25,214 bases of DNA from Anaerolineales bacterium. Its GTDB lineage: Bacteria; Chloroflexota; Anaerolineae; 4572-78; J111. Of this stretch, positions 1 through 21,633 are shown piece by piece. Both the position numbers and the translations under genes were made by a program. The DNA is taken from positions 1 to 25,214 of the forward strand of contig JAAUSP010000032.1 of the NCBI GenBank assembly GCA_012032575.1, read 5' to 3'. How positions within the stretch are numbered: position 1 is the stretch's first letter; every line of letters begins with the position of its first letter. The notes under the pieces are model-generated. The model was not told the origin of the DNA, did not search any database, and saw nothing but the letters and a program-made list of their open reading frames with translations.

Positions 1-1919
1 CCATTGTTGCGCAGGATAACTTTGAACATCAGCGGATTAGTTTCAAAGGCAGCTTCGACGGGCGAGACTTCATCGGGCCAGTAATCGTTGTAGCTCACGC
101 CCAGCCAGGTAATTTCGACCCGGTCAGGGGTCGTTTCGGGCAGGGCCTCAACGATAACGCCGGTGGTCAGGTCAGCGCTGGCGGCAAAAATGGTGTCAAT
201 ATCTTGCAGGCGATGGACATTGGTAGCGATGCAAATTTTGCCAACTGCCGCAGGCCCGGCACACTTCGCCCGCTTCCAGCAGTTCAATCATGCCGTTGGT
301 GTTGATGCTAATCCGTTTGATGGAACGGGGAGTGGTTCGGCCAAAACTGAAGGCAAAGGGGAGCGTGTATTCCAGGGCTACGTCGTCATCAAGAGCGATG
401 CTGGCATCACGGTTGGGGATGGTAGGGAAGTTCCCCCAGGCGACGCTGCGGGTGTCGTTGGTAGGGCCGCTCCAGGCCAGGTTCCAGGTGGTGTTAGGGA
501 GAGCCTGGCGGTTATTGCGATAAAGGCGGGCTGGCTGATTCTGGTTGCCCCAGGCGGCGTCCGGGTAGTTATCATCGTCAAAATCGGCCCAGGCCAGGCT
601 GGTGGTGTTATCGGCGTTGGAATTATTATCGCCTAATTGAGAACTGGCTGCGCCTAACTGTAAGCCGGTGTTCTGATGAAGGCGGTTAGGCGTACCGTAG
701 TCGCCCACGCTCAAATCCAGGTCGCTATCCTGATCGGTATCGGCCCAAGCCACTGCATAGCTGTGGCGCGACTCGCTGGGTGTCCAGACCGACTCTTTGG
801 TCAGTGGCCCAATCAGGCATTCATTGGGACTGAATGCACCGCCGGTATTTTTGTAGAGCCGCAACAAGCACATATTATGCTGGGTGCGATAGGCGGTATC
901 AATATAGCTGGCGGCGGCCAAATCGAGAGCGCCGTCCCGGTCATAATCGGCCAGGTCAATTCGCCAGAGAACATCCGGGGTGATAAAAGTTTGGTTGGGC
1001 ACATAAAAAACGTTATCGTCATAAATATAATTTTTGCCGCGCCGGAAGCCGTTGGTTATCTCAAAATCGCCCGCCGAAATCAGTTCCAGCTTGCCGTCGT
1101 TATCTACATCGGCCCAGCGTACGCTAAAGGTGCGATGAGCGTGATTGCCGGCGGTCACCAGTTGGCCGTTGTCGTTGCGGTAAACTACAGTTTGATCGGC
1201 TGTTGCCAGGGCCAGGTCAAGATCACCGTCCTGGTCATAATCACCCCAGTCCTGGTCGTAACCACCGGCTTCGGTAGTGCAGCCGCTCGGCCCTTCCAAA
1301 GGGGGGCGCCTTCGGCGTTAAGAACAGAGGTTTTGAGTTGAACCGTGGTTTGGGTTTGGTTACTGGGTATAAATGAAACGCCGCCATAGGTCACGGCGGC
1401 ATCATTAAAGATCAAGCTGTTGGCGGCCCGGCAGTCAACTCTGGCCTTAAACCGCAGGATTGTGGTCTGACCGGGATTGATGGTAAAGTTGCGCCAGATT
1501 ACTCCATTGGCCGTTTCTATAACGGTATCAGTGTTGGCCGCACCTTTACGCAAAGCCGGAATAGAAACCTGAGTGACAGTTTTGTTGACCTCGCAGGCGA
1601 TGCCGGGCGTCCCTGCAATACATTCAACACCAAAGAAAGTGCCGGAAACAAGCGTATCTTCGGCTTTATCTACAGCAAGTGGCGAACCGGTCAGGTTTCT
1701 AATGGTCAAAGTGTAGGTAATGCGGTCGCCATTGTAGATAATGGCCCCATTGATAGGGTCTGCGTCGGTTTGTACCGTTTTGACAACACTGAGATCTTCA
1801 CCTTGAGCCGCCGGGCGGGCAGTGGCCCGAGGAGGAGAGAGCAATCCAATCGTCGCAGTCATAAACAGGCACACAATTCCTAATGTCGCCAAAAATCTAC
1901 GAATAGCTTGATGATTCAT
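1..1919 (-). CDS. secreted DUF11 / FG-GAP (VCBS-like) repeat protein, partial, two frameshifts
   Basis: The N-terminus has a signal peptide (basic start, hydrophobic stretch ending near ATARPAAQG). A DUF11-like beta domain follows (VVKTVQTD..., ITYTLTIRNLTG). Repeated FG-GAP/VCBS-type units come next, with calcium-binding-like motifs such as DYDQDGDLDLALA, DVDNDGKLELIS, DYDRDGALDLAA, DTDQDSDLDLSVG and DFDDDNYPDAAW. The reading frame changes near 1300 (run of C; one more C would give NAEGAPPLEGPSG) and again near 240. Beyond 240 a third frame stays open to the left edge (GVIVEALPETTPDRVEITW), so the C-terminus is outside the window. The protein is probably exported and either anchored or released; such repeats form beta-propellers used in adhesion or ligand binding. 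It lies downstream of the two-component genes and 172 bases after the last of them, so it may have its own promoter. A direct role with the injection system is not shown. Confidence 0.8.
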
Positions 1920-2571: not shown

Positions 2572-3234
2572 TTACTCGACGCTCAAACCCCGCTCCTGGC
2601 GCAAGACGTACACAATAGCCTGGTTGCGATTCTCCAGACCCAGTTTACCCAAAATATTGGAAACGTGGACTCGCACCGTTGACCCGCTGAGATGCAGTCG
2701 CCCGGCAATGGCCCGGTTAGATAAGCCTTCGCTGAGTAAAGCCAGCACTTCCTGCTCGCGCGGGGTCAGGGGTTCAACCAGACCCTCAGTTTGAGGCAGG
2801 GGGCTGCGGCTGTGGCGTACTCCCCGAGCCAGTTTGGCTGCTACGTCGGGCGGCAAAAAAGTGTTGCCCGCAGCCACTTCACGCACCCCCCGCAGAAATT
2901 CTTCCCGTGAAGCATCCTTCAAGAGATAACCCATTGCCCCGGCCTGGATAGCGGCCACCACTCTTTCGTCGGAGGTGGAACTGGTGATAGCCAGGATGCG
3001 CGCTTGCGGCTGCTGGGCCAAAATTTCGGCAATCGCTTCGACGCCGTCTTTGACCGGCAGGTACAAATCCAGCACAATGACATCGGGCTGTAAAGCCAGG
3101 GCGCACTGGACGGCTTGCTGCCCATCGGCAGCCTCAGCCACCACCTGCATGGCCGGCTCTATTTCCAGGACTACCCGCAGCGCTTCGCGCATCATGGGGT
3201 GATCGTCCACCAATAGAATTCGGATGGGGGTCAT
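2572..3234 (-). CDS. NarL/FixJ-family response regulator
   Basis: A 220-residue protein with an N-terminal receiver domain (about 1-120) and a C-terminal LuxR-type helix-turn-helix (about 154-216). The acidic pocket D10/D11 (LLVDDHP), phosphoacceptor D56 (VIVLDLYLP), T/S at 84-86 (AITSS) and K106 (YLLKDA) are all present, so it should be phosphorylatable. The HTH carries the usual LTPREQEVLALLSEGLSN pattern and a recognition region STVRVHVSNILGKLGL. The start codon overlaps the stop of the upstream histidine kinase (ATGA at 3231-3234), so the two are translationally coupled and form a cognate pair. Its targets are unknown; the neighbouring injection-system and surface genes are candidates by position only. 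Confidence 0.95.
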   Translation of the reverse strand: MTPIRILLVDDHPMMREALRVVLEIEPAMQVVAEAADGQQAVQCALALQPDVIVLDLYLPVKDGVEAIAEILAQQPQARILAITSSTSDERVVAAIQAGAMGYLLKDASREEFLRGVREVAAGNTFLPPDVAAKLARGVRHSRSPLPQTEGLVEPLTPREQEVLALLSEGLSNRAIAGRLHLSGSTVRVHVSNILGKLGLENRNQAIVYVLRQERGLSVE

Positions 3235-4475
3235 GGCGTATTTCTCCTGAAGGTCACTCGTGTCCCCTGGTCCGGAGCGGAGTGGACCTCGATTTGCCCG
3301 CCCAGGCGTTGGGCGCGTTCAGCCATGCCACACAGGCCCAAGCCTTTTCCCCGACCATTTTTATCACCCAGGTCAAGTCCTCGCCCGTTGTCGGCAATTT
3401 CCATCTTAAAGTGATCAAAGCTGCCGGCCAGCCAGACGGTTACACGAGTCGCACAGGCGTATTTAAGGGCATTATTGAGACTCTCGACTGCAATGGGATA
3501 AAGTTCTGCTTCCCAGATTTTGGGCCAACTGGCATCGGTTTCGACCATAAGCTGCGCCTCAACCCCGGCGCGGCGCTCAACCGTATCCAGCCGGTGCTGG
3601 AGGGCTTCTACCAGGCCAATTTCTTCGGGCGAGGCCAGCCGCAGTTCGTACACCAGCAAGCGCATTTCCTTAAGCGCCTGGCGAGCGCTTTCGACCACAT
3701 GGCCCAAAACTTTTTCCAGCCGCTCCGGTTGAGCCTGCTGCAAATGAGCGGCTGTTTCGGCGGACAGGACCAGGCTGTGCAGCGATTGAGCCACCGAGTC
3801 GTGCAGGTCACGGGCCAACCGGCGGCGTTCGGTCACAACGGCATTTTCGGCCACGACGGTGCGCAGGTGGGAATTTTCCAAAATGACGCCCAGGCCGTCA
3901 GCCAAAGCGCCAAACAGGGCAATATCTTCCACCGCAAAGTGGCGTGGGGCTGTCCAAAGCGCACCCAACATCCCCGGTTGGTGATCCGGCAGGGAAACCC
4001 ATTTGAACAGGCAAGCCCCAAAGCCGGCTCTGGCGATTGCTTCCGGCAAGTCGGGCGAGTCAGCCGTATTGATATCGGCTCGCACATCGAAGCCAAAGGC
4101 CAGCCAATCGAGCGGCAAGTTATGTAAGCCGGTCTCGACAGCCTCAGACAAGCCCTGCTGCGCTTCCAAATGCAAGAAGTCTTGCTCAACCTGATAAAAA
4201 CAGGTCGCTTCGCAATTTAAAATCGCCCGAATTTTATCCAAAGCCTGTTTTTGCAGCGTCCCACTTTCGAGAGTCTGGCCGGCCATCAACATCAGGTTAT
4301 ACAGGCCGGTCAGCTTGTGACTCTGGTCAGCCAGGTGGATAGACAGCAAGTCATGGCCCTGGCGCAGGTCATTTTCCAACTGCTGCCGGGTTTCGATTTC
4401 TGCTTTCAGGCCGCGGAGGGCAGTCTCCAGGTCGCTGGTACGCTCGATGACCTGCCGTTGTAAATCTTCAACCAT
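3231..4475 (-). CDS. cytoplasmic GAF-type sensor histidine kinase, NarX/DesK class (HisKA_3)
   Basis: No membrane segment or signal peptide is present, so it should act in the cytoplasm. Numbered from a possible TTG start at 4517, a coiled-coil N-terminus (to about residue 60) leads into a GAF-like region (about 70-220). The dimerisation/phosphotransfer helix ERRRLARDLHDSVAQSLH has its histidine near 239. An HATPase_c domain follows: N-box ESLNNALKYA near 345, G1 DNGRG near 376, G2 GKGLGLCGMAER near 390. I prefer the ATG at 4475 (MVEDLQRQVIERTSDLE) because a GCAGGG ribosome site precedes it. The earlier in-frame ATG (4505) and TTG (4517) overlap the end of the upstream Ig-domain gene and lack a clear ribosome site. 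The gene is coupled to the regulator by a 4-base overlap and follows the multi-Ig protein by about 20 bases. Confidence 0.93.
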   Translation of the reverse strand: MVEDLQRQVIERTSDLETALRGLKAEIETRQQLENDLRQGHDLLSIHLADQSHKLTGLYNLMLMAGQTLESGTLQKQALDKIRAILNCEATCFYQVEQDFLHLEAQQGLSEAVETGLHNLPLDWLAFGFDVRADINTADSPDLPEAIARAGFGACLFKWVSLPDHQPGMLGALWTAPRHFAVEDIALFGALADGLGVILENSHLRTVVAENAVVTERRRLARDLHDSVAQSLHSLVLSAETAAHLQQAQPERLEKVLGHVVESARQALKEMRLLVYELRLASPEEIGLVEALQHRLDTVERRAGVEAQLMVETDASWPKIWEAELYPIAVESLNNALKYACATRVTVWLAGSFDHFKMEIADNGRGLDLGDKNGRGKGLGLCGMAERAQRLGGQIEVHSAPDQGTRVTFRRNTP

Positions 4476-4495
4476 AATCCCTGCATACCTTTTTT

Positions 4496-7400
4496 CTATG
4501 GACATGTGCTGGACCAACTGGTGCCGCTTGGTCCTGTTTCCACCGGATTCAGGTTAATGTCTTCATAAAGCGTGACAACGTAATAAATTTTACAGGAGCC
4601 GCCCCCGCCATCGGTCCAATCGCGTGCGTCCGTTCCCACGTCGGCGACAGGGCCAAAATTGTTACCGGGCGGCACATCGGCCCGGTAAACACGGAAGCCT
4701 AAAATATCCTGACTGCCGCTCCAACTCCAGGTGATGGTATTATCCAGGCCCGACATGCTGCCATTAACACTTGAAGGCGGTTGGGGGGCGGGCTTGGGCA
4801 TCACATGGAGTTTCATATTCTTGGTCGTCACCAGCCCATTTTTATTTTTGGCAGTCAGGGCATACACCGCCGGAGTTTTCCCCTGAGTTTGGGTGGAAAA
4901 GTCTGGCACATCCAGAAAGTTTGGCCCTGGTCCATAACTGCCGCCCGGACTCAGGGTAACATCGGTGGCGTCATCAGACACAATCCAGCTTAACTGGATT
5001 GTGGTGCCGGCCTCGACCGTGTATTCTTCATCACTCAAACGAGTCACTTTGCCGCTATCCGCCGAGTCTCTGGCTTCAACTTTGAAGAAGAAGATAGTGG
5101 GCGCGGGCGGGGTAGCCGTGGGCGTGGCCGTAGCGGGTAGCGGCGTGTTGGTCGGCGCGGGTGTGGTGGTGGGCGTGGGTTCTTTGACCGTCGCTTCTAC
5201 ATTGGCGCTGATTTTTTGGTCAACGTTTATCGCCGTCAAGACAAAAAGGGACGACCCCGTGACCGAAACGTTGAGCGAGCCTTCCTTAGTTAAGCCAACA
5301 ATCGGGCTGCCCAGCGATGGCCCGCTGATTTCCACGCCGGTGGTATCGCCCACCACCGACCATTTTAATTCCACCGAACCGCTGCTGCCTTTGAGCAAAA
5401 TTAGCGTGTCGGGATTGGCGGTGAAGAACTTGATTTGAGGGGCCGGCGGGATGCCGGTCGCAGTCGGCGCGGGCGTCACATACACGGTGACACTCTGGGG
5501 CTTGGCCGCCGAGGGACCGTTGGCCGCGTTGAGAACGTAATTGGTTGTATCCAGCGGGGCGATACTGACACTCTGCGAGGCCGGTAAACCCTCGCCGATG
5601 CCTAACACACTGACCTGATCCACGCCGGTCACTTCCCAGGAGAGAGTGGTATTTTCCCCGGCGACAATGGCCGGGGGGTTGGCAAAGAATCTGGAGACAA
5701 ACGGGGTGGGCATAGGGGTGGGCGTCGGCGTAGACACTTTGATAATGAACGGGTCGGAACGAATGGGCGTAGCAATATAAACATTGCTGGCTTCCAACAC
5801 ATACGTTGTTTCCCGGTCCAGCGGCCCGGTATCGAGCGAGCCGCCTGGCCCCGGCACAGGTTTGGGGTTGCCGTCGGCCTGGTTGATCAGATTTATTTGT
5901 TCCGCGCCCTGCACTTGCCAGGAAAGCTTCACGCTGTCGCCGGTGATAATACTTTCTTTATCACCACCAAAGGTCATAATCGTGGGCGGCACGGGGGTTA
6001 TAACGACCGATACGGTTTGCGGCTCGACCCCAAACCACTGTGGATTGAGCCGTGACAGCCAGTTGTCGCCTTTGAGCTGGTAAACCGCATTAGCGGTTGG
6101 GGCCACGGTAATATTGCCGACCGAACTATCTAACGGGTCCTGGCTTAATTCGGGGATGACCAGCCGGGTAAACGGCGAAGCCTGCCAGTAAAGGGTGACA
6201 GAATCGCCGGCTCTGGCAATTTTGCTCGACGATCCATCCACGTTAAAGGTGCTGATGGAGGGTTTAAAAATGACCACAATCAAGGCCAGTAAAAACAGCC
6301 CCAACAAGAACAACAGCAGCGGGCCAATCAGGGGTGATGTTTTGAGCTGGCCCAACATCGAGCGGGGCAATTGCGCCCCATCGGGCATAGAGGAGGTGAT
6401 GGTGAAGGTGTAGCTCCGTTTGCCCAGGGCGACAAACTGGCGGCTGTGCGGCGTAATCAAAACCGGCAGGCTAACGGTTTGTTCCGGCGGAATGTGAAAC
6501 TCGGCCTGATTCGCCAGGTTAGCACCCTCGCCGGGAACTTTGAATTCAAAACTACACCCCCGCTCGTCGTCACGGCCATCTACCTGAAACAGGGTGTTGC
6601 TGTTGCCTTTGTTGGTCAGGGCAATCGAGGCTCTGGCCGTGCGGGTAAACCAGGAGATAGATTGCTGGCGCGGGTTTATTTCGCCCACGCTGAATTCGTA
6701 ATAAGGATTAATCATCAGGGTGGCCCCACGCCGATTAACCCGGCCAGGATAGTTGAGGGAGGTGATGACCAGGGCAAAGTGATGCGGGCCGGCATAACTG
6801 GTGGGCAGACGCGGCGGGGCGATGCTGATGGTCACACTGGCCCGGTTGCCTTCAAACAGGTTGACGTATCGCGGGGAAATCGTCACCCATCTTTCGTCCA
6901 GCCCTTCGACCCTGACCGAGAAAGTGGCGACCAAATCGCCGCCGTTGATAATGGTCAATTGATAAACAGCGGTTTGTTCGACCTCAACCGTAATTTCCTG
7001 AAGCTGGAGTTCGGCGATGATAAAATCGTCGTCCTCATCCGGCACCGGCGAGGTGATGCGGGTGACAGGCACGCCGTTCACCTGCATCACCGGGGGCAAA
7101 GGGCGGCTGATGGGCCTGGGGGCCGCTTCGGGCCGGGTGGAGGGCGGCATCACCATCATCGAACGAGCGCCCGATGGGGGTCGCCCCTGCGGCGCTACGG
7201 GTCGCGTGGCATGCTGGGGCGGTGAAACTGGCGGCGCAGCCGGGGGCATGATCATGGGCCGGCTGATCGGCGGTTGGGGCGGCACATAACCCTGGTTGAG
7301 TTGGGTTGGGTGCTCAAAGAGAATCAGGATATACCCGCCCAAATTCATACGCTCCAGATGACGCACGGGCCTGGGCTGATAAATGTTGAGCGATGGTTCG

Positions 7401-7609
7401 TCGCCGTCCGTTTGTCCCTCATCACTCAGCAGCATCAGGCGATAGGGTTTCTGCTGGTGATGCAAAACTGCCAGAAAAGGAGCCACTTCGGGATCGGCAA
7501 TCACCAAATCATTCTCCGGGTCGCCGCCGATGTTGGTAAACCCTTTGACCGGGTCAAGGGTGTAAAATTTAACTTCGCCGTCAGGGCTGATGATTTCGAT
7601 GCGGTCCAT
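4496..7609 (-). CDS. FHA-like / beta-sandwich / transmembrane / multi-Ig-domain protein
   Basis: A 1037-residue protein, probably membrane-anchored with the N-terminus inside. Residues 1-100 look like a forkhead-associated fold (IGGDPENDLVIADPEVAPF), but the conserved Arg and the SRxH phosphothreonine-binding motif are missing. A Pro-rich linker spans about 101-185. Two beta-sandwich (NEW3/CARDB-like) domains follow (about 195-302 and 305-415). One strong transmembrane helix lies near 426-448, with LKTSP before it and KPSIS after it. The outside part has about five Ig-like domains (pattern F.ANP..I..GE.TTLSW.V) joined by Thr/Pro linkers, and a final fibronectin-III-like domain (about 940-1037). 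A ribosome site AGGAAGGG precedes the ATG. Its inner half has the same architecture as the soluble protein at 10409-11368, suggesting a shared partner. Scaffold, anchor or envelope sensor are all possible; no enzymatic motif is seen. Confidence 0.85.
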   Translation of the reverse strand: MDRIEIISPDGEVKFYTLDPVKGFTNIGGDPENDLVIADPEVAPFLAVLHHQQKPYRLMLLSDEGQTDGDEPSLNIYQPRPVRHLERMNLGGYILILFEHPTQLNQGYVPPQPPISRPMIMPPAAPPVSPPQHATRPVAPQGRPPSGARSMMVMPPSTRPEAAPRPISRPLPPVMQVNGVPVTRITSPVPDEDDDFIIAELQLQEITVEVEQTAVYQLTIINGGDLVATFSVRVEGLDERWVTISPRYVNLFEGNRASVTISIAPPRLPTSYAGPHHFALVITSLNYPGRVNRRGATLMINPYYEFSVGEINPRQQSISWFTRTARASIALTNKGNSNTLFQVDGRDDERGCSFEFKVPGEGANLANQAEFHIPPEQTVSLPVLITPHSRQFVALGKRSYTFTITSSMPDGAQLPRSMLGQLKTSPLIGPLLLFLLGLFLLALIVVIFKPSISTFNVDGSSSKIARAGDSVTLYWQASPFTRLVIPELSQDPLDSSVGNITVAPTANAVYQLKGDNWLSRLNPQWFGVEPQTVSVVITPVPPTIMTFGGDKESIITGDSVKLSWQVQGAEQINLINQADGNPKPVPGPGGSLDTGPLDRETTYVLEASNVYIATPIRSDPFIIKVSTPTPTPMPTPFVSRFFANPPAIVAGENTTLSWEVTGVDQVSVLGIGEGLPASQSVSIAPLDTTNYVLNAANGPSAAKPQSVTVYVTPAPTATGIPPAPQIKFFTANPDTLILLKGSSGSVELKWSVVGDTTGVEISGPSLGSPIVGLTKEGSLNVSVTGSSLFVLTAINVDQKISANVEATVKEPTPTTTPAPTNTPLPATATPTATPPAPTIFFFKVEARDSADSGKVTRLSDEEYTVEAGTTIQLSWIVSDDATDVTLSPGGSYGPGPNFLDVPDFSTQTQGKTPAVYALTAKNKNGLVTTKNMKLHVMPKPAPQPPSSVNGSMSGLDNTITWSWSGSQDILGFRVYRADVPPGNNFGPVADVGTDARDWTDGGGGSCKIYYVVTLYEDINLNPVETGPSGTSWSSTCP

Positions 7610-7677
7610 ACACAGACACCCTTCCTAAAAAATAAAAAGTAGAAAAGTAGCCAGAAGAGTTCTACAGCGTGGTGCCC

Positions 7678-7765
7678 GTTACGAAACGAGCAGGCCGGGA
7701 TCCCACGCCCGGCACTCCCTGCGGTCGTCGGCGGCGTGGGAGCCGCCTCTGCTAAGTTTCGCAAC
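7678..7765. repeat. REP/MITE-like imperfect palindrome between the multi-Ig and vWA genes
   Basis: Arms 7678-7709 and 7733-7765 are imperfect inverted repeats. The inner 9 bases TCCCACGCC pair perfectly with GGCGTGGGA, the outer ends GTTACGAAAC and GTTTCGCAAC match with one difference, and the middle matches apart from small gaps. It fills most of the 165-base space between the two genes. It could fold into a long mRNA hairpin. No run of T follows on the minus strand, so it is not a classical terminator. Confidence 0.75.
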
Positions 7766-7774
7766 GCAAACTAC

Positions 7775-10253
7775 CTACAGAAAATTCAAGGCCAAAAGCC
7801 GCCAGACGGCCAGGATGACAACCAAACCGGCCAGTCCGGCCATCAACATCACTGTCAGAACAGGCGGCAGGTAATACCATAGCCAGAAAAATCCCTTTAC
7901 TTCAACCAGTCCCGGCTGCTTCAGCGGTGCGGCATTGGTCTGGTCGAGCGGGGTAGAAGTCAGGGTAAAAGGATAAATTTGCCGCCGATGAAGAATACGC
8001 GGCGTCATGACCAGCTCAACCAGCACGCTTTGCCCCGCTTCCACCGGCGGAGTTTGCACCCACATATCGGCTGCCCCTACGGCAAAAGTGACCGGCTGCG
8101 CCGCCGGTTCGCTGCTGACCGGTTTGTTCCCGTTCGATAAAAACTGCCCGGTAGCGACTCGTCCGGCTTGCTGGCTGCCTGCCCCCGGAACTGCGCTGCC
8201 GACCTGATCACGCAGATATTCAACCGTTCTAACCCGCTGCGTTTCGGTTCGCACCAGGCGTTCTACCGGCATATATCTGGCCGAAATCTGTTTGCCAAAC
8301 CGGGCCACGGTTGTTCCGGCGGAACCGGGTAAAACCTGGGAGATGGTCGTAATAAGTTCCAGGACTCCGGACAAGCCGCCGTAAATTCGACTCTGCACCG
8401 CTTCAACCCCGGCCACCGCCGATTGAGATCGCCTGGAGCGTGAGGCCGGCAGAGCCTTAGCCGCAGGCGCGACCGGCTGGACCTGGTCAGGTTGAGCCAC
8501 CGGCAGCACTGGCAGCGATTTGCCGTGCAAGCTAAACTGGAATTTTAGGTTCTTTTCGGCGTCGGCCCCCAGGCCAAAGCGGCTGCTGATATTGCCCGAA
8601 TTGACCAATTCCAGGCTGGCCCGGCGCTGCACCCACTTTTGTTGAGCCAGCTTGATGATTCTTAACAGCCTGATGGTCAGTACAATGATGAGGGCCAAAG
8701 CTACCAATACCAGCATTACCGTAGTCCCCCAGTTGGAACCAGCGATTCTGCAAAAGCTGTTCAACCCACGTTGGGGGAGGGGGACCGGCGGGCAGCAGTT
8801 CCAATTCTGCCACATCGGTAGCGGTGTGGCCGGTGGTATCTGTAACCAGAACCTTCATCTGGTAGGTTCCCGGCGAGTAAGCCTGCGTGTCAAACCCAAA
8901 GCCATACGGCGGAGCCGTGCTGCGACCCAACAATTTATCATTGAGCATATAATCAACGCTGGCTAATCCGGCAGCAGTTTCAATTTGAACGGTCGGTGTA
9001 ACCGGCTGCCCAATTTCGATGGAGGTTTGCAGCATAAAAACTTTGACCTTGAGCGAACCTTCCACCGTCACGTTGAGCGGAATTGTGCCGGTATTGCCCG
9101 CTTTATCCACCGCTTTGATGGTCAATATATGAGAGCCGAAGCCGGTCGTGGCCGTATCCCAGACAAAGCTGTAAGGCGGGGTCGTGACCTCGGCCAAAAC
9201 CTGATTATCCAACAGATAAGTCACCGTTGACAGGGGGGCGGGCGCAGTGGCAGTGACTCCCAGGTTAACCAGGCCGCTCACAGTTTGGCCGTTGGTGAGG
9301 CCCGTCGGGCTGAGGTTAACCGGGCCGGGGGTGGTGATAAATTGTCCGGCGGCGGTTTCGCTATCGCCGTTGGGTCCGGTCACGTGCACAAAAACTTCGT
9401 GGATGGTGTTATCAGCCGGCAGGCTGGAGTTGAAAGTGATTTTGTAGCCCTGGCGCAGTTGTTTTTCCAGGGTTAGCATGGTGAAGTTGACGGCCTCGGC
9501 ATCGGCCACGGCCAGGTATGCCCCGCCGGTCACAGCTACCTCAGCTTTAAGCGGATGTTGACCCTGCACCTTGCCACCAAAACCAATAATGTAAAGCGGC
9601 AGCCGGGCTTTTTGCACCCAGGGCAACACATAATCAAGTGAGGGTGAGCCAACATTATCATAATTGTCGGTGATAATGATGATGGCTTTACGGCCAGCGG
9701 GGAGTGGGTCAAGCAGCCGGGCCGCTTCGACAATGGTTTGATGCAGCGCCGTGTGTTCGCCCTCAGGTTGCAGGGCGTCAATGGCGGTGGTTAAGGCGGT
9801 GGTATTATTGGTGAAGGTATAATTCGGCTTAACCCCGTCGCTAAAACTCAACAGGGCCAGCCGGTCCTCCATAGCCAGCGTTTGCACCAGACTCTTCGCC
9901 GCCGTTTTTACTTCGGCCAAATCTGTCTCTGGTAGACTGACATCGAGAGCCAAAACCACCTGCAACCCTGTCAGCGAAATCGGCTCCACTATTTGCGGCG
10001 GGATAGGTGTTTGCAGGTTGTTCTCAAAAATGACAAAATCTTTGGCCGTCAGTTTTTCCAGGGGTTGGCCCGATTGGGAAACGGTGGTATAAAGCGTTAA
10101 CTGGGGAAAGTGCTGACTTTCCGTGCCGGTGAGCGCCACCAACAGGGCTTCCCCCTGCGCCCCAGCCCCGGTCGCCAGGCCAAAAACCAATAGCCAGCCT
10201 GTCACAAGCAGGGGTATATTTTTTACTAATCGCGTTAGCTTTGCCCAGGTCAT
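7775..10253 (-). CDS. von Willebrand factor A / Ig-domain membrane protein (one frameshift)
   Basis: About 825 residues once the frameshift near 8720 is bridged; removing one G from a run of five joins NRWFQLG to TTVMLVLVALAL. It has an N-terminal signal peptide or anchor (LLVTGWLLVFGLATGAGAQ). A vWA domain spans about 90-270 with a partial MIDAS: D104 and S106 (LDVSLP, the second Ser replaced), T168 and D196 (TDNYDN). Two bacterial Ig-like domains follow (about 310-398 and 405-488). A transmembrane helix sits near 510-535, followed by positive charges (RLLRIIKLAQQK), then a region of about 250 residues expected in the cytoplasm, including a beta domain, and a hydrophobic C-terminal tail (about 787-825). 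The vWA part should therefore be outside and the beta domain inside. It lies between two FHA-like genes in the same orientation. It may bind a protein ligand or assemble a surface complex; the link to the injection system is positional. Confidence 0.85.
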
Positions 10254-10271
10254 AGCTATATTTCAAATAAA

Positions 10272-10400
10272 TATGAGTTACGTAGTTCCAAAATATTTTT
10301 AACCACAGACAGATTTTACAAAATTCTTTTTATTTTTCTGTGTAATCCGTGAAATCTGTGGTTAGTTTTTAGATACAATGTGTCAACTGCGTAAGTCCTA
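10272..10400. repeat. MITE-like nested palindrome, 129 bp
   Basis: The outer arms TATGAGTTACGTAGTT (10272-10287) and AACTGCGTAAGTCCTA (10385-10400) are inverted repeats with 13 of 16 matches. Nested inside, TAACCACAGA (10300-10309) and TCTGTGGTTA (10355-10364) are perfectly inverted. The centre is AT-rich and there is no coding capacity. It occupies nearly all of the 155-base gap between the FHA-like gene and the vWA gene. The right end resembles termini I associate with small mobile elements in Chloroflexota and cyanobacteria (from memory). Confidence 0.7.
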
Positions 10401-10408
10401 AAAAAACT

Positions 10409-11368
10409 TTAACCCATCTCAGGCCAATCATTCCCATTCTGCGATGGCGCGACCGGTTGAGCCGGAGCTTTGGCTTCCAGTTTCAAAGCCGGTGTGGTCG
10501 GACGACTGCCGGCAGCAGGCAAATCCCATTCCCGGTCGGCTTCCCAGGTTGGCGGAGCGGGCGCTTCAATGGAAACCGCCGGCTCAACCGGGACGGAAGC
10601 AGCAGCGACGACGACTGCCGGCGTTCCAGCCGGATTGGATGGCAAGATAATCCCCGCCGCTGGCAGCAGGCGCAGGCGATGCTGAAAAAACGGCGCAACC
10701 TGGAGCACTTGGGTGACGGTAGCAACCTCGCCGGGATAGGCGGCGGGCGCGGCGGCCTGGATAACGATGCGCCAATCTCCGGCCTGGGGTTTATGGCCGC
10801 GATGGTGCAGCCGCACCAGAACCTCTTTTTCTCCTCCCGCCGACAGCAGCGGGCCGGGAGCCAGATCATAACAATCCGGCTCCAACCCTTCCAACTTCAG
10901 GTCAAAGCGCACCCCGCTCCGCTGGCCCAAATTGCCGACCAGAACCACCCCTTCCATGGTTTGGTTGGGCATCAGGCGGGTCGAGGGCAGCAGCAAATCC
11001 AGGCCGATACAGCGGCTTGTTCCGCTGGCCGCGCTTTGAGCGGGCTGGCTGCCGCCATGAAAAATCAGGGTAAAAGCGCCTAACTTAAAACTGAAACCGT
11101 CGGCTAAGGTCAAGGCCGCGCCGGGGGCTAGCGCACTCTGGGGGTCCGGCCCTGCTTGAAGCTCGGTTTCGGTCAGGTTGACCAGGCGATAGCCGGACTT
11201 ATCCTTGCCCGCCGCCACAAATTGCAGGTGAAACGGCGCTGCCTCACCGCCATCCAGCACAATGTCATTGGCCGGGTCGCTGCCCAGATGCAAAATCCCT
11301 TTCTGCAACGGGTACTCTTTTGACCAGCCTTGTGGATTGACAATTTCTAATTTTGCGCCTTGACTCAT
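10409..11368 (-). CDS. soluble FHA-like plus beta-sandwich protein
   Basis: A 319-residue protein without signal peptide or membrane helix. Residues 1-105 resemble an FHA domain (LEIVNPQGWSKEYPL, HLGSDPANDIVLDGGEAAPF). As in the 1037-residue neighbour, the phosphopeptide-binding Arg and Ser/His motif are degenerate. Residues about 120-230 form a beta-sandwich (NEW3-like) domain (VGNLGQRSGVRFDLKLEGLEP). The C-terminal 90 residues are Ala/Pro-rich and probably disordered. A strong ribosome site (GAGGTGA) precedes the ATG, only 9 bases after the methyltransferase stop, so it is likely in the same operon as the upstream genes. It looks like a shortened version of the inner half of the protein at 4496-7609 and may bind the same partner. 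No enzymatic motif is visible. Confidence 0.8.
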   Translation of the reverse strand: MSQGAKLEIVNPQGWSKEYPLQKGILHLGSDPANDIVLDGGEAAPFHLQFVAAGKDKSGYRLVNLTETELQAGPDPQSALAPGAALTLADGFSFKLGAFTLIFHGGSQPAQSAASGTSRCIGLDLLLPSTRLMPNQTMEGVVLVGNLGQRSGVRFDLKLEGLEPDCYDLAPGPLLSAGGEKEVLVRLHHRGHKPQAGDWRIVIQAAAPAAYPGEVATVTQVLQVAPFFQHRLRLLPAAGIILPSNPAGTPAVVVAAASVPVEPAVSIEAPAPPTWEADREWDLPAAGSRPTTPALKLEAKAPAQPVAPSQNGNDWPEMG

Positions 11369-11377: not shown

Positions 11378-12955
11378 TCAACCGACGAGCAATGCCTCAG
11401 CCGCCAGCCGGCCCAGCGTGTGCGCCAACGCCTGGCCCAGCGACTCGTCCCCCGTCTGCCCGTCTGACTCCAGCAGGACGCCCTGAGCCACCAGAGTGCG
11501 CAGGTGAGCCAGCAGGTCGGCCTGGCTGTGCCGGCCGTCCAGATAAGGCAATAAGTAATAACCCAGGTCGGTTTCATCCATTAGAACAGGTTCGTGGCGC
11601 TGGTTGGTCACTTTATTACCCTGGCTGGCCTCAAAGCGGGCCAGAGGACTGGCGGTGGGATAATCGCTTATCGCCAGACCAAAATTGGCGCTGCAAGCGT
11701 GAAGCTCAACCATGTTCAGAGCGTACCCCTTCAACAACAATTCGCCCAGCGTTTTGACCTCGTGAGCCTGCCGGGCCGCGCTGTAAACCGGCGGTTCCGT
11801 CGGATCAAGGCGAGCGCGGGCCTCGGTCAACACGCGCTCAAAGGGAGCCGCCTGGGGCCAGATTTCGGCCAGGTAAAGGAGCGCTGCCTTATTTAAAGGC
11901 TGCTGGGTGGTCAGGGTGACGCCGATGGAACTGCGAAACTTTTCGGGGACGGCTAATTTGAGGGTAGGCGGTCCCGCCACCGGCTGGAGCGACGCCGCCA
12001 CGTGCAAACCGAGCAGACTTTCCGGCTGGATGTCCGGGCGCAGGGTCACTTCTTGCTGGCACAACAGCGTTTGCCGGAAGGCCCGCACGTATAAAAAATC
12101 CATCAACTGTTCCAGTTCAACCCGGCTGGAGGCCATCTGTTCCAACTGCCGGGCCAGGTGAGGCGGCAAATAATTGGTAATCAAAGCCGAGGTTTCGGCG
12201 TCGGTTAGATATTGCAGCCCGTTCTGTTCGGCCTGCTCCACAAACTGGTAGAGATAAAGCGGCTCGTTGATGGCTTCCAGATGGTCATGCAGCAGGTACT
12301 CATCGGGCTGGTCTTGCAGCAGCTCGCGCAGGCTTTTGAAAATAAGCTGATTCGCCTGGAGCGCGTCCGACATGTTGCTGGACAGGCCGGGCAGGGTTTC
12401 GGTCATAAAATCGAGCAGAGTCCTGGCCTGTTTGACCCGCGCTTCGGGCGCAGCCAGGTGGCGGGTTTGATACAGCATCAAGCCTCGCGCCAGGCCATGC
12501 ATATGCCAGCCGGGGTAGACGTTGTAGCTGATGTAAGCCACGCCGTGGGGGGACAGATGGTGTCGGCAAATCTGTAAGATTTTGCGCTGTACCTCTGCCG
12601 GCGCCCAGGTGTAAACGCCATAAACAATGATGTAATCGAATTGCCCCAGTTCCTCGGTCACATCGAGTAGATTCATGGCTTGCAGCGTCAGGTTTTTCAG
12701 GCCCAACGCTGTCGCTTTGGCCTGTCCGGCGGCAATTTGCCGGGGTGACAGGTCCAGGCCGACAAATTGGCTCTCCGGCAGTTGGCAGGCCATCGGGATG
12801 AGGTTACTGCCGTCGGCGCAGCCTATATCCAGCACCCGGCAGCGTGTCACCGGGACCGGTTTCAACCCAAACAGAGTCGCCAGGGCCGCCAGGTGATTGG
12901 GATGCGTTTGCGGCCGGGGCAATGATGGATAGGGGACTTCGTCGTAACTGGTCAT
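11378..12955 (-). CDS. SAM-dependent methyltransferase with regulatory domain, copy 2 (intact)
   Basis: A 525-residue protein. Residues about 40-160 are a class I methyltransferase: motif I VLDIGCADGSNLIP, acidic end of strand 2 in FVGLDLSPRQ, later strands DYIIVYGVYTW and GVAYISYNVYPGW. Residues about 210-300 match the methyltransferase regulatory domain (MethyTransf_Reg). A C-terminal region (about 300-525) follows, with FRQTLLCQQEV and a winged-helix-like end (LPYLDGRHSQADLLAHL). This architecture is known in protein-lysine methyltransferases such as rickettsial PKMT1/2, which modify the surface protein OmpB. A protein substrate is therefore possible, but unproven here. It starts 9 bases after copy 1 with an AAAGGAA ribosome site and precedes the soluble FHA-like gene by 9 bases. 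Confidence 0.9.
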   Translation of the reverse strand: MTSYDEVPYPSLPRPQTHPNHLAALATLFGLKPVPVTRCRVLDIGCADGSNLIPMACQLPESQFVGLDLSPRQIAAGQAKATALGLKNLTLQAMNLLDVTEELGQFDYIIVYGVYTWAPAEVQRKILQICRHHLSPHGVAYISYNVYPGWHMHGLARGLMLYQTRHLAAPEARVKQARTLLDFMTETLPGLSSNMSDALQANQLIFKSLRELLQDQPDEYLLHDHLEAINEPLYLYQFVEQAEQNGLQYLTDAETSALITNYLPPHLARQLEQMASSRVELEQLMDFLYVRAFRQTLLCQQEVTLRPDIQPESLLGLHVAASLQPVAGPPTLKLAVPEKFRSSIGVTLTTQQPLNKAALLYLAEIWPQAAPFERVLTEARARLDPTEPPVYSAARQAHEVKTLGELLLKGYALNMVELHACSANFGLAISDYPTASPLARFEASQGNKVTNQRHEPVLMDETDLGYYLLPYLDGRHSQADLLAHLRTLVAQGVLLESDGQTGDESLGQALAHTLGRLAAEALLVG

Positions 12956-12964
12956 TGGGTTCCT

Positions 12965-14550
12965 TTAACTTGTCAACAACGCGGCCTGAGCCAGAGTGGT
13001 CAGCGCGGCTGTTACCATTTCCGGCAGGGCTTTTTCGAGGTCAATTGTTGGGTCGTCAAGCTGCACTTCGATTTGTCCTTCGGCCAGTTGGCAGGTCAGC
13101 AGTTCGACCAGGGCGGATTGCGTCCAACTGCCATCCAGGCAAGGCAGCAAATGGTAGCCCAGCCCTTCGATTTTAACGCTTTCGTGACGCAGATTGGTCA
13201 CGGCACTCGCCTTTTGGAGCGCCTGAAATCGGGCCAACGGGCTGGCAACAGGCCGCTCGCTCACCTGCCGCACCAGGGGCGGACTGTAAACGTGAAACTC
13301 CACCAAATCCTCGTGATAGGCGAACGCCTTCAGCAGGTTAGCCCCCAAAATCTGGACTTGTCGCCCCTCATCCGGGGCATTGAGGCGAGCACGAGCCGCC
13401 GTGTACAGGTCATTAAACGGGACAGCCTGCGGCCAGACCTGGCTGAGGTGGAGCATCGCCGCCTGAGTGAGCGGGTGGTCGGTGGTTAATTTGCGGCCTT
13501 TGGGGGCGCGGAAGACCTCGGCAGCGCCGGCAGTTGGGTCAAGGCTGGGATTCTCCGGCAGCGCTGAGGAAGATAGATAAAAATCGGCCAGCCGTTCCGG
13601 GGCCAGACGACCTTTCAGGGCCACTTCCTGATGGCACAGCAGGGTTTGGCGGAAAGTGCGGTTGCGCACAAAATCCATGTACTGCTCCAGCTCAACCGTG
13701 CTGTGGGGCCACCTGCCGCAGCCGAGGCGGCTACGTCGGGCGGCAGGTTGTCTACCAGCATGCTTTGAAATTCGGCTTCGGCGAGGTAGCGCAGACCAAA
13801 CCGGGCGGCCTGTTCGACAAACTGGTAAAAATAGAGCGGCTCATTAATCTCGGCCAGCTCGTTGTGGAACAGGTAAGCGTCGTCCCCGGCGGGCAAGAAT
13901 CGCTCGCGCACGTAATGAACGTAGGCGTGTAAAAAGTTGGCCTGCGGCGTGCTGTCGGCCACGATGGAGTCGGCCAGAAAGTCCAGCAGTTCCCGCGCCC
14001 CGGCGATGCGCTCGCCCGGCTCGGCGGTTTGCCGGGTATGGTAAAGCATCATATCGCGGATGGCGCTGTGCAATCGCCAGCCGGGATAGGTGTTGTAGCT
14101 GATGTAGGCCACGCCGGTCGGGGTCAGATGGTCGCGGCAAATCGCCAGAATTTTATCCTGCACCTGTGGCGGAACCCAGGAGAAAACGCCGTGGGCGATG
14201 ATGTAATCAAACTGGCCCAGCTCGGCCCCCACCTCCAACAGGTCCATCTGCTGGAGGGTCACATTGGACAATCCGACCGCCGCCAGTATTTTCTGGCCCT
14301 CGGCAATCTGGCGGGCCGATAAATCCAGGCCGACAAACTCGCTGTGCGGCAGGCTGCACGCCAGCGGAGCCAGGTTGCCGCCGGAAGCGCAGCCCAATTC
14401 CAGCACGCGGCAGCGCTCAATGGGCGGCGGCTGCATGCCCAGGAGGGTGGCAATGGTTGCCAGCCGGTCAGGGTGCGTTTGGGGAAAAGGGTTGCTGGTG
14501 TAGGGAAGCTGGTCGTATGCGGTTGGTGGTAGTTGAGCCTCAATATTCAC
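12965..14550 (-). CDS. SAM-dependent methyltransferase with regulatory domain, copy 1 (one frameshift)
   Basis: A paralogue of the next gene with the same domain order: motif I VLELGCASGGNLAP, FVGLDLSARQIAEGQ, DYIIAHGVFSWVPP, GVAYISYNTYPGW, then the regulatory domain (INEPLYFYQFVEQA) and the C-terminal region. The frame changes near 13700: the homologous text TVELEQYMDFVRNRTFRQTLLCHQEV is read in another frame from the preceding DVAASAAAGGPTA. One missing base after CCCACAGC would restore about 528 residues. The likely start is GTG at 14550 (NIEAQLPPTAYDQLPY); no strong ribosome site is visible. It is separated from the DUF4159 gene by 224 bases holding a heptamer repeat and a MITE-like palindrome. 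Tandem duplication with divergence suggests different substrates or a heterodimer (inference). Confidence 0.87.
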
Positions 14551-14774: not shown

Positions 14775-15896
14775 TTATCCCTGCCGGCGATTGAGCGCAT
14801 AGAGCAGGATATTTGCGCCCCATTCGGTGGCGGTGCGAATTTCTTCGCGCGAGGCCGGCCCATGGTGACAAGTACCCTGCCAGGTGAGTCCGTAATTCTG
14901 GCGGCTGACAATCACCCCATCGCCAACGGAGACACCCGGCTCTCCGCCCGCTTCAAAGCCCGACGGGGGTACATTAAAAAAGTAGGGCTGCGCCAGCAGG
15001 GGATGCCCGGCGGTGAGCGGCTGGACGGTCATTTCCCGGCTGGTTAAAAAGTTCATAAAGCTAGTATGAGCTTCTTCATCTACACTTTCAATGAAGAGCG
15101 TGCCCCGGCTGCGCTGCACATACTGCCGCAGCCCGTTCATCACCCCGGCGCTTAATTCAAAGGGACCCTGTCCCACCAGGTAAACCAGGGTATTCACCCC
15201 CAGGCCGGGGGTCAGGGGAACATCGTCCTCCACCAGCACCCGGTACTTGCTGAGATGATTGAACGTTTGGGCCAGGTAGGTTGCTCCCAGGCCATGGCGG
15301 GGCTGAGTCACGTCGCCCAGGTAAGTCACCGCCACCCTGATGTCGGGGGGCGCGCCGACCTCGCAACGGAAGCGCAGATCAATCTCATCCGGGCCGGGCG
15401 TAACCGGATTGAAGGCATTTTGCAGCACCGATTTGCGGCTGCTGCGCTTGATGCGGGCCAGTTCCACGCCGGGGGCGTCGGTCAGGGTGGTTTGGGCGGT
15501 GATGGAAAAATCGCTGTGGGCATAGACCGGCCCGCTTTTGGGTTGGCTGCTGTCGTTGTTATGATGGCGGCTTTCGCCGTAGCTCAAAACCAGGTAAAAC
15601 AGCCCTTCCATTTCCTGCCCGATGTCATACACCACCGGTTCGGGCAGGACGATGACTTGCCCGGCCTGGTCAATGGCAATCCCCGGCAAAATGTACAACG
15701 AGGTGTCGGATGGATCATTCGCCATTACCTTCAAGCCGGTGATAACGCCGGTCCCATGCTCAAACAGCGTGTGCAGGGTCTGGCTGCGGCGATGGTATTC
15801 GTGGGCCTCGTCCCAAATGGTAGCGGTGATGGCCATGCCATTGAACGGCTTAATTCGTTTCAGCGGATAACGCCGCACAAGTTCTTCAGGTGTCAT
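14775..15896 (-). CDS. eCIS-linked protein with C-terminal DUF4159-like domain
   Basis: A 373-residue protein without signal peptide. The N-terminal half (about 1-190) has the pattern EYHRRSQTLHTLFEHGTGVITGL then ILPGIAIDQAGQVIVLPEPV, a style I associate with accessory proteins of phage-tail-like clusters. The C-terminal half (about 200-370) matches DUF4159: TYLAQTFNHLSKYRV, NTLVYLVGQGPFELS, a glycine-strand stretch SRGTLFIESVDEE, GHPLLAQPYFFNVPPSGFE, and the end EWGANILLYALN. DUF4159 is related to the class I glutamine amidotransferase-like fold, but I see no catalytic triad that I would trust. The ATG overlaps the stop of the preceding tail-protein gene (ATGA at 15893-15896), which ties it tightly to the baseplate operon. 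It is probably a structural or assembly accessory of the particle. Confidence 0.8.
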   Translation of the reverse strand: MTPEELVRRYPLKRIKPFNGMAITATIWDEAHEYHRRSQTLHTLFEHGTGVITGLKVMANDPSDTSLYILPGIAIDQAGQVIVLPEPVVYDIGQEMEGLFYLVLSYGESRHHNNDSSQPKSGPVYAHSDFSITAQTTLTDAPGVELARIKRSSRKSVLQNAFNPVTPGPDEIDLRFRCEVGAPPDIRVAVTYLGDVTQPRHGLGATYLAQTFNHLSKYRVLVEDDVPLTPGLGVNTLVYLVGQGPFELSAGVMNGLRQYVQRSRGTLFIESVDEEAHTSFMNFLTSREMTVQPLTAGHPLLAQPYFFNVPPSGFEAGGEPGVSVGDGVIVSRQNYGLTWQGTCHHGPASREEIRTATEWGANILLYALNRRQG

Positions 15897-16893
15897 AAGG
15901 TCTCCAGGCGCAAAGTATGGATGAGATGGGCCGGTTTTTGCCGTTCGATGATGGCCTCGATAGCCCGGCGGCGCAGCTCTTCCAACTGTTTTTGTTTTTC
16001 AGGCGACTCCGCCTCCAGGGGCGGCAGGCGCAAAACCACCGTAAACGTATGGGGCCGATTGTCGCTGCCCAGGGCCAGGGCCGGACTTAGCTTGGCGTCA
16101 TCGCCCAGGGTAAAATTTTCGGCGCAGGCTTCGATGATTTCCGGTTCGCAGCCGGTGTAAAGCTCCAGGTATCTGGCCAGCCCGCGGCGAGTGCCCCGGT
16201 TGTGATGCAAGAACAGCGCCGCGCCCAGCAGTTGGCGCAGCCGGTCCTCCGGCCACTGTTCTTCCAAACTCCAGGCTCAGCCAGCCCGCCAGCCAGGGCA
16301 AAAAATAGGCCGGGGTCAGGTGTGGGTCAAAGTAGTTGTAAAGACTGCCAATCTGGGTATCGAGCGGCGACCAGAAGCTCTCAAAGAGCATTAAATAGCG
16401 CCCGATAAAATCGTCCTGCTCGTACAGCGCGGGCAAGTAACGCAAATATTTACCCTTGGCCCGGGATGAGCAGGCTGACCGACTCTTCGGCCAGGAGGCT
16501 ACCATCGGCGGAGACAACCGAAGCCTGGGTGGTCAGGCTAGTATCTTCTTCGATACGAGCGATGGTGGCGCGGGTCTGGTATTCAAGCACAGCGCCGGCG
16601 GGCAGTTCCGGCAGCGACCAGACCAGGTAGCAGCCACCCTCCCAAGTTTCCAGGTTGGGGACATAATCCGACTGCGGCGACAGGTAATCGCGCAAAGCCA
16701 ACCCATCAGGCAGCCATACCCGCAGCGACAGACCATCCGCCGGTTCGTGGATTTCCAGGCGGGTGTAAAAAGTGACCACTTCGCCGGGATAGCGCTTGTA
16801 AAAGTCGGCCACATGACTCAACGACAAGGTTGAAGGATGAAGGATGAAGGATGAAGGGTTGCTGGATTGGGGCTGGAGGTCTGGCCCGATCAT
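15893..16893 (-). CDS. tail protein I-like baseplate protein (Afp12/Pvc12-like), N-terminal beta domain, two frameshifts
   Basis: Two single-base shifts split it into three frames, near 16455 (GGGTAAA; dropping one base gives PGQGKYLRYLPALYEQ) and near 16265 (...LAGWLSLEF / EEQWPEDRLRQLL). Bridged, it is about 333 residues. The start is ATG 16893, overlapping the TGA of the baseplate J gene. Residues about 20-145 form a DUF11-like beta domain (YPGEVVTFYTRLEIHEPADG). Then comes the phage-tail-protein region (TIGR02242/tail protein I type): YLPALYEQDDFIGRYL, FLPWLAGWLSL, HHNRGTRRGLARYLELYTG, ending KPAHLIHTLRLETL. In phage P2 and Afp-type particles such proteins sit at the outer baseplate next to the J protein and connect to fibres. 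The extra N-terminal domain is the unusual part. A heptamer repeat lies inside its first 25 codons. Confidence 0.85.
16831..16858. repeat. heptamer tandem repeat (TGAAGGA, four copies) inside the tail-protein gene
   Basis: Four head-to-tail copies of TGAAGGA; the last ends in G instead of A. It lies about 12-20 codons after the ATG at 16893 and encodes NPSSFILHPS on the minus strand. The unit is 7 bases, so a change of one copy would shift the reading frame. Confidence 0.85.
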
Positions 16894-18996: not shown

Positions 18997-19000
18997 AAGC

Positions 19001-19408
19001 TCATTCCTCGCCCATCAGGAAAAAGGGATAAACAATACTGCGCGGGTCGTGGGTGTCTTTGATGAGATATGTGATTTCAGCCAGCAGGGTGGCGCTGTTC
19101 TGGCTGTCGGAGTCAATCTCCACTTCCTGCACTTCGATGCGCGGCTCCCACTGGGCCAGGGCTTCTTCGATGTAATGGATGAGCAGCCCTTCGGTGGCGG
19201 CGTTGTTGGGGGCAAAGACCAACTCGTGGATGCGACAGCCAAATTCGGGCCGCATGACCCGCTCGCCGGGGGAAGTTTCCAGGATAATGCGGATGGATTG
19301 CTCGATGTCGTGTTCGCCACCGACCAGGCCAATACCACCCCGTGAGTTAATTTGGGTGGGAAAGTTCCAGCCCTGCCCCAAAAATTCTTTGTTACGAGTG
19401 TCGCTCAC
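19001..19408 (-). CDS. gp25-like baseplate wedge protein (Afp9/Pvc9-like)
   Basis: A 135-residue protein with the gp25/GPW pattern: FLGQGWNFPTQINSRGGIGLVGGEHDIEQSIRIIL, then SPGERVMRPEFGCRIHELVF, where the conserved EFGCRIHEL loop is intact. It ends with LAEITYLIKDTHDPRSIVYPFF. This protein nucleates sheath polymerisation on the baseplate in T4, T6SS and Afp-type systems. The start is GTG at 19408 (MSDTRNKEF), preceded by GGAGG inside the end of the PAAR gene. Confidence 0.93.
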   Translation of the reverse strand: MSDTRNKEFLGQGWNFPTQINSRGGIGLVGGEHDIEQSIRIILETSPGERVMRPEFGCRIHELVFAPNNAATEGLLIHYIEEALAQWEPRIEVQEVEIDSDSQNSATLLAEITYLIKDTHDPRSIVYPFFLMGEE

Positions 19409-19410: not shown

Positions 19411-19701
19411 TCAGCCTCCAATCAAAACGGTGGGCGCGCCCGGTGGCCCCACGACGGTGCTCACCGGCACGCCGGTCATCGGGTTGACCCCCATCACCTG
19501 GCTGGTGACGCGAGCCGCCGGTCTGCCGCCAATCAACACGGTCATACTGCCCATCATAATGCTGCCATTACAGGCCGCTCCCGCCACCATATCACCCACG
19601 ACGGAAGCTGGCATTCCGCCGATTAACACGACCGGCACACCGGGGCCGGTAATGGCGTCACCGGTGGCGGTCATATCACCTACACGCGCTGCTGGGAACA
19701 T
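19411..19701 (-). CDS. PAAR-domain spike tip protein (Afp10/Pvc10-like)
   Basis: A 96-residue PAAR protein (PAARVGDMTATGDAITGPG, VVLIGGMPASVVGDM, TVLIGGRPAARVTSQV, PPGAPTVLIGG) with three VLIGG turns typical of the cone-shaped repeat. There is no C-terminal toxin extension, so it is a bare tip that would sharpen the VgrG-like spike. A GGAG ribosome site precedes the ATG by 7 bases. It lies between the spike and gp25 genes. Confidence 0.92.
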   Translation of the reverse strand: MFPAARVGDMTATGDAITGPGVPVVLIGGMPASVVGDMVAGAACNGSIMMGSMTVLIGGRPAARVTSQVMGVNPMTGVPVSTVVGPPGAPTVLIGG

Positions 19702-19729
19702 AGAATTCTCCGAATAAATCTTTAGTATT

Positions 19730-19776
19730 CGTGTTGCGTGTTGCGTGTTCCGTTTCTTTACGCAACACGCAACACG
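19730..19776. repeat. perfect 17-bp inverted repeat built from heptamer units
   Basis: CGTGTTGCGTGTTGCGT (19730-19746) is the exact reverse complement of ACGCAACACGCAACACG (19760-19776), with a 13-base loop. Each arm is itself a tandem of the 7-mer GTGTTGC or its complement. It lies in the 91-base gap between the spike stop and the PAAR start. No T-run follows on the minus strand, so it is an mRNA hairpin rather than a standard terminator. Confidence 0.85.
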
Positions 19777-21628: not shown

Positions 21629-21633
21629 AGCGA

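Follow-up and report, generated by a model that had tools for sequence, protein, structure and literature searches.

Three consecutive genes, here named FHAsm, vWA and FHAIg, were analyzed on contig JAAUSP010000032.1 of an Anaerolineales bacterium (phylum Chloroflexota; assembly GCA_012032575.1), and the whole analyzed stretch of 25,214 nucleotides is referred to as the window. The trio is strongly linked to, and a conserved part of, a contractile injection system (CIS) gene cluster. It probably serves an intracellular CIS as a module for docking at the envelope and for firing, and the best support for the docking idea comes from its receptor kinase relatives and from baseplate relatives bearing forkhead-associated (FHA) domains. 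The window encodes BpJ, gp25, VgrG, PAAR and CIS_tube proteins and therefore belongs to the TIGR02243-type CIS, a definition that covers extracellular (eCIS) and cytoplasmic CIS. The minus-strand gene order was CIS_tube/LysM, VgrG, PAAR, gp25, BpJ, Cis12/Tail_P2_I, CIS13-like, two PKMT methyltransferases, FHAsm, vWA, FHAIg, histidine kinase (HK), LuxR and DUF11/FG-GAP. The trio is transcribed in the order given, on the strand of the CIS genes and after the methyltransferases, as the original prediction had described, with gaps of 9, 155 and 165 bases ahead of FHAsm, vWA and FHAIg.

The conservation of this arrangement was evaluated in related loci (numbered L) and genomes (numbered G). A scan of genome contigs with 22 FHAIg sequences yielded 58 pattern matches and 11 loci, and eight of these (L004 to L011) had more than 2 kb ahead of the FHAIg match. 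There, vWA sequence preceded FHAIg in seven of the eight (only its C-terminal part in L009) and FHAsm in six; L005 and L006 start inside the trio and L011 contains an FHAIg fragment only. All five loci reaching past FHAsm (L004, L007, L008, L009 and L010) had Cis12 and CIS13 ahead of the trio on the same strand, and four of them also had BpJ. A CIS13-FHAsm-vWA arrangement could further be observed in L107, at a contig end of G007, a genome that also holds L002. TIGR02243 was present in 10/10 searched genomes with FHAIg loci, the genome of L003 being outside this search.

A sample of 251 Chloroflexota genomes was searched with an FHAIg core profile (A3) and with TIGR02243. The latter matched in 60 genomes, 50 of them over its cut-off, and A3 matched in 35. 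TIGR02243 occurred in 31/35 core-positive genomes versus 29/216 core-negative genomes (Fisher 8e-19, a p-value that is too small as species are not independent). Of 48 core matches, 23 (from 18 genomes) shared a contig with a baseplate match no more than 20 kb away; 21 of the 23 were on the same strand and 19 downstream. An orthologue-like A3 score was obtained in G004 only (163 bits; next 100), and thus the phylum test supports the wider core family while the reading of the loci supports the trio itself. The co-occurrence with gp25/J/VgrG genes that had been predicted was borne out in both data sets, and the opposite case, a trio found mostly without eCIS, was looked for and not found. A chance neighbourhood was ruled out by synteny and co-occurrence.

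Domain analysis revealed that the unusual architecture proposed for the trio is real, with FHAsm and FHAIg each combining a degenerate FHA and a NEW3-like domain, and FHAIg adding a membrane helix and an immunoglobulin-like (Ig) stalk. The NEW3 regions of FHAsm and FHAIg matched each other (hhalign 95.3%). FHAsm, which has 18 relatives, matched PF16697 with 21.0 bits, under the cut-off of 33.2, and its profile gave weak FHA matches only against PDB sequences (EmbR, GarA and others, E 0.09–0.18). FHAIg matched PF16697 and FixG_C, both under cut-off. Neither window FHAIg nor FHAsm matched PF00498 up to E 1, below the curated FHA cut-off, which was passed by 5/5 FHAIg relatives scanned (P0012, P0016, P0022, P0032 and P0053); the term degenerate FHA therefore fits the window copy of FHAIg. 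The AlphaFold2 model of FHAIg consisted of strands at residues 3–98, Ig-like domains at approximately 195–412, a helix at 430–448 and then a stalk of beta domains. The phospho-binding positions Arg, Ser, His and Asn read G, A, L and G in the window copy, so that all four are lost. Across the family the binding residues are mostly gone: of 112 readable rows (120 relatives listed), 5 retained Ser, 7 Asn, 78 Arg and 90 His. The NEW3-helix profile gave no match against PDB sequences up to E 1, and Ig/fn3 proteins took up the whole result of the FHAIg structure search, which therefore covered the part outside the FHA domain.

The vWA gene is read in the window as open reading frames (ORFs) 8532–10253 and 7775–8815, owing to a frame break near 8730 that adjoins a run of five G. 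The N-terminal ORF matched PF00092 and Big_7, both over cut-off; the full metal site DxSxS..T..D could not be found in its vWA domain. Relatives' vWA proteins were mostly encoded by a single ORF of 743 to 1293 amino acids (aa), with a 313-aa remnant in L009. The model of the L004 relative placed one helix at the start, one after the Ig domains and a further one near the C-terminus, and the inside domain was a single beta sandwich interrupted by a helical insert. The vWA/Ig part, helix and beta domain described earlier held; the frame break, the extra helix and the splitting insert had been missed, as had the kinase and FHA-baseplate relatives. A single protein, P0160, was also encountered in which vWA, Ig domains, helix and FHA are all present, joining two trio parts.

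Sequence comparison connected FHAIg to kinase proteins beside other CIS loci. FHAIg residues 420–733 aligned with a kinase protein of Deinococcus aquaticus at 27% over 321 columns across the helix (E 6e-15; NEW3 E 6e-9), and the NEW3 region only aligned with the L087 protein at 31% over 149 aa (E 3e-15), values calculated over 11 subject sequences and to be read knowing that Ig repeats align easily. By these alignments, FHAIg is a kinase-less homologue of CIS-linked receptor kinases at the same slot. Kinase domains function in the cytoplasm. Since the homologous proteins carry the kinase before the same helix, the FHA and NEW3 domains of FHAIg are expected on the inner side of the membrane and its stalk on the outer side. 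The charge bias at the helix was uninformative (more positive on the N side in 37/88 and on the C side in 30/88 family members). The FHA parts lying outside, which would have contradicted the earlier topology, was not supported, as the homology runs through NEW3, helix and stalk.

New in this study are these kinase-FHA-NEW3-helix-ectodomain proteins, found at the trio slot in sister CIS clades of Chloroflexota and Deinococcus, where Cis12 itself starts with FHA. FHA passed the Pfam cut-off on 8/10 Chloroflexota Cis12 proteins scanned and was absent from those of L102 and L104, the latter being of the window type. An N-terminal FHA on Cis12 could be seen in L087 (5986–6975), L093, L095, L096, L097, L092, L084, L105, L111, L128 and L129, with GR, SRxH and NGT kept in most. 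Phospho-binding residues were likewise kept in most FHA domains of both Cis12 and kinase proteins in sister loci. PF00069 was found in 4/10 accessory proteins scanned (L087, L095 and two in L096), all four of which also contain FHA and a helix; it was further present in L111, L128 and L129. Across 49 loci, a kinase match above 100 bits to custom profiles was present, within the DNA available for each locus, in 13/17 FHA-Cis12 loci (five of the 13, L085–L088 and L091, being near-copies) versus 1/32 others (Fisher 1e-7). That one locus is from D. grandis, where different frames encode the FHA part and the Tail_P2_I part and the gene looks broken in that record; the kinase type is carried there on plasmid pDEGR-1. 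Tandem kinase-FHA and FHA proteins with helices followed Cis12 and a methyltransferase in L096 (9097–20000) and L121 of G176, a genome with three kinase matches in L096 and one more in L121.

In Deinococcus, all five records opened of six found (H11 being the sixth) had an approximately 1600-aa protein after Cis12 with a kinase-type domain, FHA, one helix and an Ig stalk. The catalytic loop was HRD in 8/8 Chloroflexota kinases tested, HGN in 4/5 Deinococcus proteins and HGD in D. psychrotolerans; because of the HGN loop, most Deinococcus proteins look like pseudokinases. Some observations weigh against a kinase role. No kinase match was present in the available DNA of 4/17 FHA-Cis12 loci (L082, L084, L097 and L105), eCIS_core proteins come next in L097 and L105, and extended contig DNA of L082 and L105 gave one weak kinase match, in L105. 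Phosphatases were rarely near, with PP2C_2 within 20 kb of a baseplate gene in 1/13 sister genomes searched (G171); a PP2C protein follows in L097. The FHA-Cis12 locus L105 belongs to G005, which also has trio locus L008. The CIS cluster of D. psychrotolerans contained a vWA-domain protein between the sheath and FHA-Cis12 genes (L129, 4451–6487); its relationship to the trio vWA was not clear (blastp E 0.009 against the window part, 1.1 against that of L004).

Neighbourhoods up to 20 kb were inspected around 33 sample baseplate loci plus further loci, and an unrooted baseplate tree with 44 rows (from 47 proteins scoring above 300 bits, minus three duplicates; later-fetched loci left out) revealed four groups. 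The trio clade (support 100/100) contained seven trio rows and L098; L106 was counted as a trio row since L005, another contig of its genome, holds the trio. The FHA-Cis12 loci, mostly with kinases, formed a second group with moderate support (88/89), outside which L084 fell. CIS13-type loci formed a third (100/97), several of them with kinase-less FHA/NEW3-helix proteins; the CIS13 proteins of L100, L101 and L102 also gave a weak FHA-like N-terminal match (25–34 bits to a custom profile). Short-Cis12 loci grouped with Streptomyces cadmiisoli (100/100), and two of them, L075 and L077, encode a one-helix zinc-ribbon protein after BpJ. The window clade stood apart from the S. cadmiisoli clade in this tree, which is unrooted and omits other eCIS lineages; this bears on the lineage IId with Streptomyces. 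CisA (SCO4242) of Streptomyces coelicolor is encoded just downstream of the baseplate genes, is required for firing and has a predicted contact with baseplate Cis11 (PMC12237407). In S. clavuligerus, a protein like those of L075 and L077 by its build, the CisA sequence itself not entering the comparison, was encoded after Cis12, in the CisA slot. A different Chloroflexota system, with two long BpJ proteins in tandem, was observed in L115 and L116, where no FHA or kinase match was found. Several alternative membrane modules occupy this slot in different CIS loci, the trio being one of them.

In the proposed docking and firing module, FHAIg and vWA would be anchored in the cytoplasmic membrane, their FHA/NEW3-type beta domains facing inward and their Ig/vWA domains facing outward, and FHAsm may be a similarly built soluble adaptor. 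The baseplate would be held at Cis12/CIS13 by the inside domains, the outside domains would sense either the envelope or a partner, for example the FG-GAP protein, and the sensed signal would let the particle fire. Because its phospho-binding residues are gone, window FHAIg probably works by plain protein contact and not through phosphothreonine. We infer from the FHA residue loss a change from phospho-signalling to plain docking, the direction of which is not proven. A further, tentative reading is possible rather than probable. One branch of intracellular CIS might be phosphothreonine-gated, with a CIS-encoded membrane receptor kinase marking a partner and the Cis12 FHA reading the mark to dock and fire. 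The window clade might be one end of a series, with HRD-type kinases in Chloroflexota, mostly pseudokinases in Deinococcus and no kinase in the window, along which a signalling receptor became a phospho-independent docking scaffold joined by a vWA partner.

Several observations weigh against a docking and firing module or its full conservation. In G004 (L098 and L103), the trio-clade BpJ lies approximately 32 kb from a truncated FHAIg, with no trio beside it. The vWA domain itself is lost in L009, and 19/50 genomes over the TIGR02243 cut-off lacked a core match. As read, the copy in the window contains several frame breaks and may be non-functional. Moreover, 4/35 core-positive genomes had no baseplate match, which would also suit a surface adhesion or wall gene set that, together with the FG-GAP protein, merely shares an operon with the CIS. 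The FG-GAP protein coming after FHAIg in 7/8 relatives with at least 3 kb downstream agrees with such a set; however, the conserved gene order, the phylum-wide association and the occurrence of kinase homologues next to the CIS baseplate genes of another phylum make it quite improbable.

A stress or envelope sensor that governs CIS expression or assembly without particle contact, for example via the neighbouring HK/LuxR pair, is an unlikely alternative. The pair overlaps the FHAIg end by 22 bases in the window, and LuxR (GerE) genes adjoin 25.8% of eCIS loci (PMC8213781), but the pair was not found adjoining FHAIg in relative loci, and the FHA of the sister clades sits on the baseplate protein itself, which points to particle contact. 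Ig stalks and vWA domains would also suit the binding parts of a released particle, replacing the tail fibres that conventional eCIS usually encode after the baseplate genes (PMC12237407). Yet the membrane helices of FHAIg and vWA and the kinase domains of homologues suit a cell-bound receptor, and Roseiflexus particles are described as intracellular and unanchored (PMC12998442), so that a tail-fibre role appears very improbable. Docking and firing remains the favoured reading of the trio.

The features of the window are given in the table below. The unit is wider than the trio: the HK/LuxR pair follows FHAIg in the window, and an FG-GAP protein does so in most relatives. Compared to relatives, frame breaks appear to affect at least four window genes (vWA, second methyltransferase, Cis12 and FG-GAP), for which assembly error is the simplest reading and gene decay an alternative; Cis12 of relatives is one ORF of 333–406 aa. 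Relative L104 adds sheath, Pvc16 cap, gp19 tube and eCIS_core genes, of which the window stops short. Scans of 20 window ORFs revealed no type III secretion system (T3SS) gene and no PF00069 kinase or phosphatase.

Features of the window and their domain matches
Feature	Position	Strand	Description
PAAR, VgrG, CIS_tube/LysM proteins	19411..22296	-	PF05488, PF04717, PF19266
BpJ (TIGR02243) and gp25	17002..19408	-	TIGR02243 394.5 bits; PF04965 97.7 bits
Cis12/Tail_P2_I baseplate wedge protein	15893..16941	-	PF09684; split into three ORFs; DUF11-like N-terminal part, no FHA domain
CIS13-like baseplate-region protein	14775..15896	-	NF053767 36.6 bits (far under cut-off 370); PF13709
Two PKMT-type methyltransferases	11378..14550	-	PF10119 and PF21782; second one frame-broken
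FHAsm	10409..11368	-	Soluble; degenerate FHA and NEW3-like domain, no helix found
vWA	7775..10253	-	Leading helix, vWA, two Ig domains, helix, split inside beta domain, C-terminal helix; frame-broken near 8730
FHAIg	4496..7609	-	Degenerate FHA, two Ig/NEW3-like domains, helix at residue 430, Ig/fn3 stalk
Histidine kinase and LuxR-type regulator	2572..4517	-	PF07730, PF00072, PF00196
Secreted DUF11/FG-GAP protein	196..1919	-	PF13517; frame-broken

The methyltransferases between the baseplate genes and the membrane module were present in four of seven trio loci (L004, L008, L009 and L106; not in L007, L010 and L107), with up to three in a row in L106, and also in the kinase-type locus L096 (7153–8817). 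In a PADLOC search, the methyltransferase matched mad2 and the L087 kinase matched defence kinases; no match was obtained for ORFs 4496–7609, 8532–10253, 10409–11368 and 17002–18996 or the L004 vWA protein, ORF 7775–8815 not being among those searched. Thirty stretches of viral contigs fitted the FHAsm pattern, and none was a relative. A Pro-rich gene with repeated VQRQ-like stretches was scattered across several frames at 22365–24886; its 788-aa relative in L104 (11122–13488) had no Pfam match up to E 0.01.

In the literature covered, a named factor for reaching the membrane and firing is given for cytoplasmic CIS only in Streptomyces (CisA). According to the Roseiflexus study, the mechanism may differ in that organism because it lacks close cisA homologues (PMC12998442). 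The loci described here place named candidates in the corresponding slot, which may answer the question for Chloroflexota and Deinococcus, and they parallel the phospho-control of the type VI secretion system (T6SS). The idea is testable because D. grandis, from which contracted CIS sheaths were purified in the same study (PMC12998442), carries the kinase type. Among titles and abstract openings of the openly licensed literature, no paper describing FHA domains or receptor kinases in eCIS was found, and FHA does not appear in the main text of an eCIS survey (PMC8213781).

The YscD/PrgH-type ring proteins of T3SS (PF16697) have a degenerate FHA inside, one helix and beta domains outside; the window proteins differ in giving sub-threshold PF16697 matches only. 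The kinase-FHA-NEW3-helix-ectodomain proteins of Deinococcus and Chloroflexota resemble FHAIg in NEW3, helix and slot, and those of Deinococcus also in the Ig stalk, whereas FHAIg lacks their kinase domain and FHA binding residues. In the T6SS, PpkA and FHA proteins control the joining of baseplate and membrane complex (PMC10433429), and PpkA bears an outside vWA domain (PMC3224232). The T6SS threonine phosphorylation pathway (PpkA, PppA and Fha) thus shares with the present loci FHA modules where the baseplate meets the membrane and, in sister CIS loci, receptor kinases; it differs in that the window scans showed no kinase or phosphatase, the FHA is degenerate and the CIS is not a T6SS. The inside part of CisA is largely unstructured and its C-terminal outside domain has been likened to substrate-binding domains (PMC12237407), whereas the inside part of FHAIg is folded into FHA and Ig-like domains and is followed by a long Ig/fn3 stalk, a build unlike that of CisA as described, and vWA and FHAsm have no counterpart in the CisA system. 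Nevertheless, the trio holds the slot of CisA, here after Cis12, CIS13 and the methyltransferases, and the inside part of CisA has been proposed to meet the baseplate (PMC12237407); the trio in turn suggests a way in which such machines may be attached to the membrane and triggered.

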